Assembly (NCBI GenBank): GCA_016188785.1
Contig: JACPHD010000009.1
Location: 1-36,584, forward strand
DNA: 36,584 nt
From: Parcubacteria group bacterium
GTDB lineage: Bacteria; Patescibacteriota; Patescibacteriia; Patescibacteriales; GWC2-42-12
Direction: 5' to 3'
In this document: in pieces, positions 24 through 22,098 of the stretch
Layout: each line of letters begins with the position of its first letter
How positions within the stretch are numbered: position 1 is the stretch's first letter
Translations under genes and position numbers: made by a program
The notes under the pieces: model-generated
Databases searched by the model: none
Seen by the model: only the letters and a program-made list of their open reading frames with translations
What the model was told of the DNA's origin: nothing

Positions 24-99
24 ACCCCGTTAGAAATTTTCATGTTATTGTTATAATTAAATCCCCGGCAGAAAACCTAGTCTGAATTTCTAACGGGGT
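24..99. repeat. Palindromic element, family D (ACCCCGTTAGAAATT...AATTTCTAACGGGGT), intergenic copy
   Basis: 15-nt perfect inverted arms at 24-38 and 85-99; same arms recur at 3725-3773 and 21206-21305. Confidence 0.85.
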
Positions 100-2976: not shown

Positions 2977-3936
2977 TTACTTTAATTGCGAAATATTTTT
3001 GTCTAATTCGTCTCTTTGGCTCTTAGCAATAAGATAAATATTATCGCTGTCGCCTTTCTTGGCGTAATACAAGCCGTCTTTGGCCGAGCCAACCATTAAA
3101 ACATTATCCACGCCCTCGCCCGTAGCCTGTATAATTATAAGATGCTGATCTAAACCAGTGCCGGCGAAAACTTGCGCCGGAATTTCCGCGGCTTTTAAAT
3201 TTGACATAACCTCTAAAACCGGCTGAATTTTTTCCGGCTTGACCACGAATTTATCCGGTAAAATACCACTCCAGCGGCCATTCTTAAGCTCAACCGTAAA
3301 TTCCCGATTCGGATATTGAAATCTTATTTTATTGATTTTCTCTTTAGGCGCGGAAAAAATAGTAAAGTCGCGCCAATCCGCCAGACTAAAAGCGCCGGCT
3401 AAATCGGCTTTAACCGCGTAAGTGGCGGCCGACTCGGGCGAAGAAATATAAGAACTAACATAATCGCCGGCCTGACTACCGATAATAAAATCCACGGCTA
3501 GTTTATCGGCCTGATAAAGTTTTATTTCCTGGCCGGAACTGTCAGTTTTAAATTGGCTTTTTCTTTCCCGATTATTACTAACTAATTCAAGCTCAGACAA
3601 AGCGGCTGTTTTTAATTCACTAAAGACGCGCTCCATAACGGCCGGATCCGCGTAGAAATCTTTACTATTATCATATTGCCATTTTTGATTTTGCTTAGTC
3701 AGAGTTAAAGTTTTCCCCTCTTCTACCCCATTAGAAATATTACGCTGCGAGCCCTCGCTATTTCTAACGGGGTAAATAATTTCAATTTTATCAACCGCCT
3801 CAAGTTTAATCTTGGCTAAAATATTTTTCGGCTTGCCTAAATTGTTTTGCCAGTTTTTTAAAGGACCCTGATAAACGTAGGCCAAAGCAATTAAAATAAC
3901 TAAAGCAATTGCCAGTATTAAAGTTTTTTTAGGCAT
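2977..3936 (-). CDS. DUF4340-type protein of the Gld-like ABC cassette; carries an in-frame palindromic element
   Basis: VDKIEI...GKTLTLTKQNQKWQ, periplasmic DUF4340-like repeats; adjacent to GldG-like ORF. Confidence 0.65.
   Translation of the reverse strand: MPKKTLILAIALVILIALAYVYQGPLKNWQNNLGKPKNILAKIKLEAVDKIEIIYPVRNSEGSQRNISNGVEEGKTLTLTKQNQKWQYDNSKDFYADPAVMERVFSELKTAALSELELVSNNRERKSQFKTDSSGQEIKLYQADKLAVDFIIGSQAGDYVSSYISSPESAATYAVKADLAGAFSLADWRDFTIFSAPKEKINKIRFQYPNREFTVELKNGRWSGILPDKFVVKPEKIQPVLEVMSNLKAAEIPAQVFAGTGLDQHLIIIQATGEGVDNVLMVGSAKDGLYYAKKGDSDNIYLIAKSQRDELDKNISQLK
3725..3773. repeat. Palindromic element, family D, inside a CDS (encodes YPVRNSEGSQRNISNGV on minus strand)
   Basis: Arms taccccattagaaat (3724-3738) and atttctaacggggta (3760-3774), one mismatch; reading frame stays open. 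Confidence 0.85.
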
Positions 3937-19725: not shown

Positions 19726-22098
19726 TTATTGTTTTAATGTTTTAATTTTTGTAATTATCTCACTATTCCCCGGATTTAATTCTAACACTTGCTGATAATA
19801 TTTCAAAGCCTGTTTAATATCGCCTTTAGCTTCATAAACTATGCCTAAGCTATAGAGGCTATTAGAATGTTTGGGCGAAAGGCTTAAGGCCAGCTTAAAT
19901 CTGTTTAAAGCTTTATCAATTTCACCATGATTATAATAAAATCGGCCCAGTTCATAAAAAATTTCCTGATCCATAACTTTCGTTGCCAGATCATTTAATA
20001 GCTTAAGCGCCAAATTGTCTTTTTTATTTTTTAAATAAGCTTTAGCTAAGCCGAATTCAGCTTCATAATAATCAGACTTCAGCTCTAAAGCTCTGATAAA
20101 ATACTTTTCCGCGTCAGCCGTATCATTATTATTTAGATAAGCCTTAGCCAATTCCGCGGCTAAAACCGGATTAGTCGGTTCAAGATCAATGGCCTGCTTG
20201 AAAAATTGCTCGGCCCAAATTTCCGAGCCGACTGTCAACTGATGTATATCTCTATAAATCATGCCTAAAGTTTCCTGAGCCTTAACCCAAGCCGGCGCCA
20301 CGGCCACGGCCAGCCGGCCGGCCTGAATTGACCGGGAAATATTTGACTGAATAAAATTATTATCCTGTTTGTCCGCCGGCTTGGCCGCCTCCAGCCGCGC
20401 CCGGTTTAAATAAAATTTAGCTAAACTGATATTGTAATCGGCCCGATTAGGATTAAGTTTAACCGCCATCAGCAGGCCGGCTTCGCGATTTGAGCTAGCC
20501 GCCGCGGCCAGTTCAGCCGCGAAAAATTTTATTTCAAAAGCCGCGAGCGTTAGTCCGGCAGCGGCTAAAAAAAATAAACTTAAGAGCCAAACCCTAAAAA
20601 ATAAAACAGTTTTATTTAGATTTATTATTTTGGCTTTAAATAAGGCTTGATTATGATTTTGCCAAAAAGCCACGGCCAGCGTGGCGAAAAACCAAAAAGA
20701 AAAATTTAAAACCGTATTAAAGGAAAAAAACAGCTGAACGAAAAATAATAATATAAACTCGGTAAAAATAACCGCGATCAGACTGTAAGTCTGGCTAGCT
20801 AAAAACGGCTCACGATTTTTTAAATGTTTAATCAGCAAAATAATATTTATATAAATAACCAAACTGATAATCAAAAAATAGCTTAGTCCGGCCGGCAGAC
20901 CTAAAGTAGCCAGCATTTCTAAAAATTGCGAAAAACTTTTATCAAACCTAATCTGCCAATAAGCATTTTGATTAAACTCGGCCGGGCGGTATAGGGAAAA
21001 ATCATGAGAAAAAGTCGCCGGACCGCTGCCGAAAATCGGCCTGGCTAAAATCGCCTGCCTAGTTATTAGAACCGAAGTTTTATAATCAAGCAAAGCTTCT
21101 TTAGGTAAGGTTCGGCCCAAAATTATTTTAGCCGGATTCACCGGCAGGGCCAGCATTAAACTAGCGGCCAGCATAACCGCGACCGGAATTAACAAATAAT
21201 AATTTACCCCGTTAGAAAAAAATTCCTTGGCTAAATCGCCTCCCCTGCTGCCTGCGCCAGTTTGCCTAGGCAAAAAAGCAGATAATTTTGCCTTTCTAAC
21301 GGGGTTTAATATTTTTTTAAAATTAAAACCGGCTTGTGAAAAGCGCAAAATAATCAATAAACTAGCGCCAACAATCAGTATTAGCCAGCTTAAATAAAAA
21401 TTTATCAGAACTAAAACTAACAAAAATAAAATTAAACCGGCGCTAAAAATAAAGCGGTCAAACTTTTTAAGCGCTCCAGCGAATAAAAAACCCACGGCCG
21501 CGGCCGACAGCGCGGCTAAAAAAACAGCTAAGCTTAAAAGCGACCCGCCGGCCTGATTAAAGGAGGGCGAGGCTAAAATATTAAACCAATCAGCCATTAA
21601 CGGCTGAAAGGCGCCGAACATGGCCAAAAGCGAAATAACCGCCGCGGCTAAAGCGGCGTAAAAGAATAGTTTTAATAAAATAAAAATTTTTTCCGCGCTA
21701 TCGGCCAGACCGGTATTAATTAGTAAAAAATAAAAAATAGCCAGGCTTAATAAGCCGAGCCAACCGTCGGAAAAACGGCCGTAAGAGCCGAAGAAAGAAG
21801 AAAAAATATCCAAACTAAAAAAAGCGGCCAGGCCGGTTAGCGCCAAAAAAATTATTATCGGCCAATTTAACGGGTTAATTTTAATTTTTATTTCGCCCGC
21901 TCTGGCCTGCTTGATAAGCCATAAAAATAAAGCCAAGCCAGCAGCCAGCCAAAGCAAAAATTGCTTATTAAACTCAAAATATTCTCCGGTCCAAGGCAAA
22001 AAAAACAAAGGCATGAGAAAAATGGTGCCTTTAATCAAAACAGAAATCATTTTATCCAATTTAACAGAAATGCTGTCTGGCATATGCCTAATTTTCAA
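19726..22098 (-). CDS. O-antigen ligase/polymerase-like membrane protein with C-terminal TPR repeats; carries an in-frame palindromic element
   Basis: Multiple TM, FGSGPATFSHDFSLYRP (Wzy_C-like), TPR repeats LEPTNPVLAAELAKAYLNNNDTADAEKYFIRALELKSDYYEA. Confidence 0.8.
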   Translation of the reverse strand: MKIRHMPDSISVKLDKMISVLIKGTIFLMPLFFLPWTGEYFEFNKQFLLWLAAGLALFLWLIKQARAGEIKIKINPLNWPIIIFLALTGLAAFFSLDIFSSFFGSYGRFSDGWLGLLSLAIFYFLLINTGLADSAEKIFILLKLFFYAALAAAVISLLAMFGAFQPLMADWFNILASPSFNQAGGSLLSLAVFLAALSAAAVGFLFAGALKKFDRFIFSAGLILFLLVLVLINFYLSWLILIVGASLLIILRFSQAGFNFKKILNPVRKAKLSAFLPRQTGAGSRGGDLAKEFFSNGVNYYLLIPVAVMLAASLMLALPVNPAKIILGRTLPKEALLDYKTSVLITRQAILARPIFGSGPATFSHDFSLYRPAEFNQNAYWQIRFDKSFSQFLEMLATLGLPAGLSYFLIISLVIYINIILLIKHLKNREPFLASQTYSLIAVIFTEFILLFFVQLFFSFNTVLNFSFWFFATLAVAFWQNHNQALFKAKIINLNKTVLFFRVWLLSLFFLAAAGLTLAAFEIKFFAAELAAAASSNREAGLLMAVKLNPNRADYNISLAKFYLNRARLEAAKPADKQDNNFIQSNISRSIQAGRLAVAVAPAWVKAQETLGMIYRDIHQLTVGSEIWAEQFFKQAIDLEPTNPVLAAELAKAYLNNNDTADAEKYFIRALELKSDYYEAEFGLAKAYLKNKKDNLALKLLNDLATKVMDQEIFYELGRFYYNHGEIDKALNRFKLALSLSPKHSNSLYSLGIVYEAKGDIKQALKYYQQVLELNPGNSEIITKIKTLKQ
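21206..21305. repeat. Palindromic element, family D, inside a CDS (encodes NPVRKAKLSAFLPRQTGAGSRGGDLAKEFFSNGV on minus strand)
   Basis: Perfect 13-nt arms accccgttagaaa / tttctaacggggt; same frame use as the 3725-3773 copy. Confidence 0.87.

Follow-up and report, generated by a model that had tools for sequence, protein, structure and literature searches.

A palindrome read in frame in a parcubacterial DUF4340 gene is very probably one copy of a mobile element family with members in at least nine phyla

When a palindrome lies inside a protein gene, is it a sequence that has been inserted and kept open, or a part of the protein that happens to be palindromic? This question is raised by a 36,584-nt stretch of DNA (the window) from a Parcubacteria group bacterium, which is contig 21 of a host genome (G000) of 1.007 Mb in 45 contigs. 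A sequence-only reading had placed a palindrome inside a DUF4340 gene and had likened it to the Rickettsia palindromic elements (RPEs), reportedly described by Ogata et al. in 2000 and 2002. Its position and its reading within the gene were found to be correct, and the ORF matches PF14238 (Table 1). The arms of the copy, ACCCCATTAGAAAT and ATTTCTAACGGGGT, contain one A-C mismatch, which is a G-U pair on the opposite strand. Read on the minus strand, the copy continues the frame of the host ORF as KIEII-YPVRNSEGSQRNISNGV-EEGKTL, with EEGKTLTL downstream, and the neighbours of the gene are GldG-like and ABC-2 transporter genes.

Table 1. Copies of the element in the window, their junctions and their host genes.
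Feature	Positions	Strand	Details
76-nt start-type copy	24..99	-	old start context tATGG; internal ATG giving MKISNGVD..; ORF continues on contig C2
Host gene, DUF4340 protein, 319 aa	2977..3936	-	PF14238 at 1.4e-23
Junction tetramer TNNA, one side	3722..3725	-	TAGA on gene strand; relatives G001 and G002 have TAAA here
49-nt palindromic element, coding copy	3725..3773	-	14-nt arms, 21-nt loop, encodes YPVRNSEGSQRNISNGV
Junction tetramer TNNA, other side	3773..3776	-	TTTA on gene strand; TNNA consensus
Host gene of the 21206 copy, 790-aa ORF	19726..22098	-	C-terminal TPR repeats
100-nt copy, in frame (NPVRKAKLSAFLPRQTGAGSRGGDLAKEFFSNGV)	21206..21305	-	flanks TTTA/TTTA, TAAA on gene strand; G002 has an empty site with a single TAAA

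A protein search recovered the DUF4340 protein from 40 of 61 genomes. None of the 19 aligned orthologues, which include three from the same genus at 73-74% identity, has the 17-residue stretch; the alignment shows a clean gap there, and no orthologue without the insert carries an equally long homologous segment. The comparison thus agrees with an RPE-like palindrome inserted in frame. It has next to no probability that DUF4340 simply has a variable loop here which is palindromic by accident: the site is variable, and the alignment shows different small insertions slightly downstream of it in other orthologues, but none of these contains the peptide, the genome holds 46 copies of the element and encodes a penicillin-binding protein with nearly the same peptide, which also turns up in a HAD-like protein from another Parcubacterium. 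Translation is predicted to give a DUF4340 protein with the 17 extra residues, which a single-sequence AlphaFold model with a mean pLDDT of only 39 places between strands 50-56 and 74-82; this model is too poor to judge whether the loop is the surface beta-hairpin that had been suggested. The residues would be a neutral or near-neutral passenger and not something that evolved to serve DUF4340.

In the host genome, the 14-nt arm gave 37 exact matches, and 91 matches with up to two mismatches versus 8 for a reversed control pattern; in the phylum of the window, the exact 14-mer was present, with a patchy spread, in 27 of 288 genomes versus 2 control matches. These differences indicate that the arm matches are not due to chance. 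Pairing of the arms yielded about 46 copies in the host genome. The family has the form ACCCCGTTAGAAAT / ATTTCTAACGGGGT with 14-nt arms around a variable loop, the whole element measuring approximately 28-114 nt and mostly 28-84; each arm position pairs in 93-100% of cases, and the inner arm positions covary. Since the three same-genus genomes hold zero to two arms (none in G001, which is 98% complete, and one or two in G002 and G003), the expansion in the host genome looks recent.

Copies are also present far outside this lineage. Among the matches listed in a contig scan, paired copies with the same arms and TNNA flanks were found in metagenome-assembled genomes (MAGs) of Omnitrophota, Deltaproteobacteria/Thermodesulfobacteriota, Planctomycetota and Elusimicrobia, and likewise, among the matches listed, in MAGs titled as Nitrospirae, Nitrospinota, Zixibacteria, Clostridia, NPL-UPA2 and many Patescibacteria. 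Although the taxon label of a single MAG may be wrong, the matches stem from many independent studies. The family occurs with identical arms in at least nine phyla, and the idea of an independent family of this lineage had to be abandoned. In a class of 42 nt, loop and arms are nearly identical in Deltaproteobacteria, Nitrospirae, Nitrospinota and Zixibacteria. Such near identity across phyla suggests horizontal spread between them; a blastn search with the 42-nt class against plasmids and phages returned no match.

The junctions have the form TNN-(ACCCC...GGGGT)-NNA, and the empty sites of same-genus relatives, found with protein queries spanning the insertion points, reveal a 4-bp TNNA target duplication. 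The copy at 21206, the third in the window and absent from the earlier reading, lies in aatatTAAA(CCCC..GGGG)TAAAttattat, the empty site being aatatTAAAttattat. In hrcA, the filled site taTGGA(..)TGGAtaaacg corresponds to empty taTGGAcaaaag with a single TGGA, and in proS, aTGAA(..)TGAAatactc corresponds to empty aTGAAatactc. In 148 copies from other genomes, T was found at -3 in 142, A at +3 in 136 and identical NN in 109; the respective figures for the 46 copies of the own genome were 40, 43 and 28. Shuffling of partners in an earlier subset (10,000 shuffles) gave identical NN in at most 44 of 100 copies versus the 75 of 100 observed. In genome G347, the two flanks match each other in 37 of the 38 complete pairs listed, which had been picked by a pattern that demanded the final A but not NN identity. 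Base counts extend the target consensus to RTNNAY. Junction statistics and empty sites together define CCCC..GGGG as the element proper and TNNA as the duplication. Copies are precise insertions at TNNA sites, with duplication of the target. The tetramers flanking the DUF4340 copy are now mismatched (TTTA/TAGA) and have presumably drifted from a TAAA target.

The duplication bears on the question of what moves the element. We regard it as highly improbable that a REP-type palindrome is moved here as single-stranded DNA by a RAYT, a Y1 transposase of IS200/IS605-like kind. The copies are short dispersed palindromes and a divergent Y1_Tnp gene is present in the same genome, but Y1 insertion makes no target duplication, whereas TNNA is duplicated here; moreover, Y1_Tnp is absent from the element-rich, near-complete genomes G308, G135, G082 and G201, and arms lie within 1.5 kb of none of 20 Y1 genes. 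No mobilising enzyme was found among the Y1_Tnp, DDE_Tnp_1 and DDE_Tnp_1_4 matches. There were no arms near the transposases at 34 Y1/DDE_Tnp_1 matches or at 5 DDE_Tnp_1_4 matches, no autonomous full-length relative with the same ends was seen near any of the three kinds, and several near-complete element-rich genomes lack both Y1_Tnp and DDE_Tnp_1. Y1/RAYT, DDE_Tnp_1 and IS1380-type (DDE_Tnp_1_4) enzymes were set aside as mobilisers, as they showed no association with the element. The ends of piggyBac-type elements resemble CCC..TAGAAA and their target is TTAA; the piggyBac-type profile PF13843 gave zero matches anywhere, controls included, and is therefore uninformative about such enzymes.

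The net gain per insertion, counted from ACCCC to GGGGT, is the length plus 2, and therefore copies with a length of 1 mod 3 add whole codons. Two phases of the arms are open, N/Y/H/D-PVRN..ISNGV and F-TPLEI..FLTG-F, and the third holds stop codons. We called a copy deep intragenic when it lay at least 30 codons inside an open frame of at least 200 codons. Each of the 43 such copies, 6 own and 37 foreign, has a length of 1 mod 3, versus 62 of 151 elsewhere, a rule that is partly circular within ORFs because out-of-frame insertions would end the ORF; as a partial control, 42-nt copies were in frames in 0 of 23 cases versus 24 of 47 for 55-nt copies (p=6.5e-6). A bias towards the PVRN..SNGV frame, which had been proposed from the window, is evident in the deep intragenic copies, with 34 in the PVRN..ISNGV phase, 9 in TPLEI..FLTG and none in the phase containing stops. 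The presence of hairpins in conserved and even essential genes also calls to mind the byps, mobile bypassing elements of Magnusiomyces mitochondria, but skipping by the ribosome or splicing out requires neither a kept frame nor the lack of stops found in all 43 copies, and we consider it extremely improbable that the intragenic copies are removed in such a way. The copies within genes, even essential ones, are readable as roughly 10-35 extra amino acids, which are presumably translated. Among the hosts recognised with Pfam are IF-2, ETF, DNA polymerase I, MurJ, class II tRNA synthetase (D/K/N), sulfatase, PurH (AICARFT/IMPCHase), PBP transpeptidase, response regulator, Mur ligases, DapF, topoisomerase I, GH57, GH94 and PGA_cap.

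Some copies were found at unusual places. Three from Planctomycetota, located at the prepilin site G/FTLIEL (L133:2510-2564, L168:2902-2956 and L131:1732-1786), recreate G-FTL and yield GFTPLEI..FLTG/FTLxELLVVI exactly at the cleavage motif; two tandem prepilin-like sites could be recognised in such proteins. Nested insertions, with one element within the right arm of another and the frame open (MTNLISNPVRNKFLNGANGVK, MANQISNPVRNKFLNGANGVN), were seen at L051:2653-2766 and L061:2439-2535.

In MurJ of one Omnitrophota order (L280-L309), 4 of the 31 aligned proteins, a set obtained by protein search, have an insert at one common codon. Three of these genes, picked by exact-arm matching, have identical arms at a DNA identity of 67-71%. 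Arm conservation as proof of selection at the DNA level was dropped: the fourth copy has decayed arms, the nearest neighbour of one insert-bearing MurJ (94% protein identity) has no insert, and the site is explained equally well by repeated insertion, as in a hot spot, or by precise loss of copies.

Gene ends hold many of the copies. Start codons contain 16 of the 46 copies of the host genome (34.8%) versus 1.8% for TNNA sites taken at random from these loci, and stop codons 6 of 46 (13.0%) versus 0.5% in the control. Both ends would be natural targets, since TNNA covers the TGNA of ATG-NA as well as TAAA at the stop, and selection would keep harmless outcomes there. In all 20 start-type copies (63-84 nt), an internal ATG opens the frame of (I)SNGV and of the downstream gene, giving N-termini of the types MANQISNGVK, MQTSNGVN and MKISNGVD. 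In several of them TATAAT is found about 10 nt ahead of this ATG, and such copies may also carry a promoter, with TATAAT as the -10 box for a near-leaderless message. An internal AACGGGGC-TATAAT-ATG stretch is common to the start-type copies L054:2537-2611, L056:2503-2579, L057:5570-5649 and L061; there, AACGGGGC could take the place of the right arm in pairing with the left one, forming a possible switch. On insertion at a stop codon, TAA would be kept and the hairpin may serve as a terminator. We nevertheless think it very unlikely that the hairpin is mainly a functional RNA or terminator, selected at gene ends and starts, with incidental coding copies and no transposition. While perfect 31-nt hairpins, the stop-codon copies, the covariation within the arms and the 42-nt class, which is near-invariant across phyla and never in an ORF, would fit such a role, it is at odds with clean empty sites and their TNNA duplication, with some 46 copies versus zero in a same-genus genome, and with copies deep in essential ORFs. 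Termination may be a secondary effect of the element.

The copy at 24-99 is of this start-codon kind. It had been taken for the same element in an intergenic position; the arms are indeed shared, but it has 76 nt and another loop, and it is not plainly intergenic, as it begins an ORF of 427 codons on the minus strand. Contig C2 begins with 141 nt whose reverse complement is positions 1-141 of the window, and because of this overlap the two contigs are probably neighbours. Between this copy and murA, at 215-322, there is another palindromic repeat that is not related to the element (cgtcattcctgcgcaggcaggaatccag .. ctggattccgg..gccggaatgacg), by its look a separate REP-like family. The murA-like gene (351-1546) falls into two ORFs in different frames, 351-692 and 644-1546, and the frameshift near 640 is either a sequencing error or the mark of a broken gene. 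Rfam matched only one tRNA in the window.

We hold it to be very probable that the palindrome at 3725-3773 is one copy of a mobile, non-autonomous, MITE-like element, RPE-like in its working and moved in trans. A trans-acting enzyme, for which a DDE-type transposase is the simplest candidate, would recognise the arms and insert the element with a 4-nt stagger, and the element would spread horizontally between phyla. Insertions that break genes would be purged, the survivors being in-frame insertions at tolerated loops, start-codon insertions where the element supplies its own in-frame ATG, and stop-codon insertions that leave TAA in place.

RPEs measure 105-146 bp and are limited to Rickettsiales, and their target duplication is listed as unknown (PMC2229807). 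Reviews treat palindromes that colonise protein genes in quantity as a peculiarity of Rickettsia and Wolbachia, with target duplication and mobiliser not known (PMC2229807, PMC10969869). As with RPEs and the Wolbachia palindromic elements, small dispersed palindromes were found here in intergenic positions and in frame in unrelated conserved genes, whose reading frame runs on through the palindrome (PMC2229807, PMC10969869). The RPE size class and a Rickettsiales host were not found; instead, the element has 28-114 nt, a TNNA duplication, a start-codon form and a range of at least nine phyla, and its arms are probably unrelated to those of RPEs. Correia/NEMIS (107 bp), ERIC and YPAL are bacterial MITEs with open frames (PMC2229807). 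The element shares terminal inverted repeats, target duplication, in-frame gene fusions and an RNA hairpin with them, and it displays the MITE features of short length with 14-nt inverted arms, TNNA duplication, high copy number and recent spread. However, most of those MITEs have TA termini and longer bodies, whereas the present element consists mostly of its inverted repeats, duplicates TNNA and has no known parental insertion sequence. REP/BIME are dispersed palindromes of 20-40 bp with RAYT transposases and a possible terminator role (PMC3733652); the element resembles them as a dispersed short palindrome with a possible terminator role, but differs by its target duplication, its copies within genes and the lack of a linked Y1 gene, so that neither a repeat-flanked Y1 transposase nor insertion without duplication was found. 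The palindromic amphipathic repeat coding sequences (PARCELs) are described as tandem repeats within genes (PMC2996958); they too are palindromes that code for protein and have spread horizontally among remote microbes, but the insertions seen here are dispersed over many unrelated, often essential genes. Literature searches gave nothing relevant on the arms, on the peptides that they encode or on palindromic elements of Patescibacteria.

More tentatively, and with some doubt on our part, a single trans-phylum family may be adapted to do no harm in coding DNA, by two stop-free arm phases, whole-codon lengths, a subfamily with its own start and preserved stops, and may be moved by a TNNA-duplicating enzyme of no recognised transposase family, so that essential proteins in uncultivated bacteria acquire peptide insertions. 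The RPE-like phenomenon is met here in at least nine phyla, with a clear TNNA signature, a sharp rule of length, and sister species of which some have copies and others lack them. How such elements move and cross phyla, and how often essential proteins accept 10-35 extra residues, can now be tested. For annotators, PVRN..ISNGV and TPLEI..FLTG peptides and N-termini of the MANQISNGVK type in these genomes are to be read as derived from the element and not as domain features.
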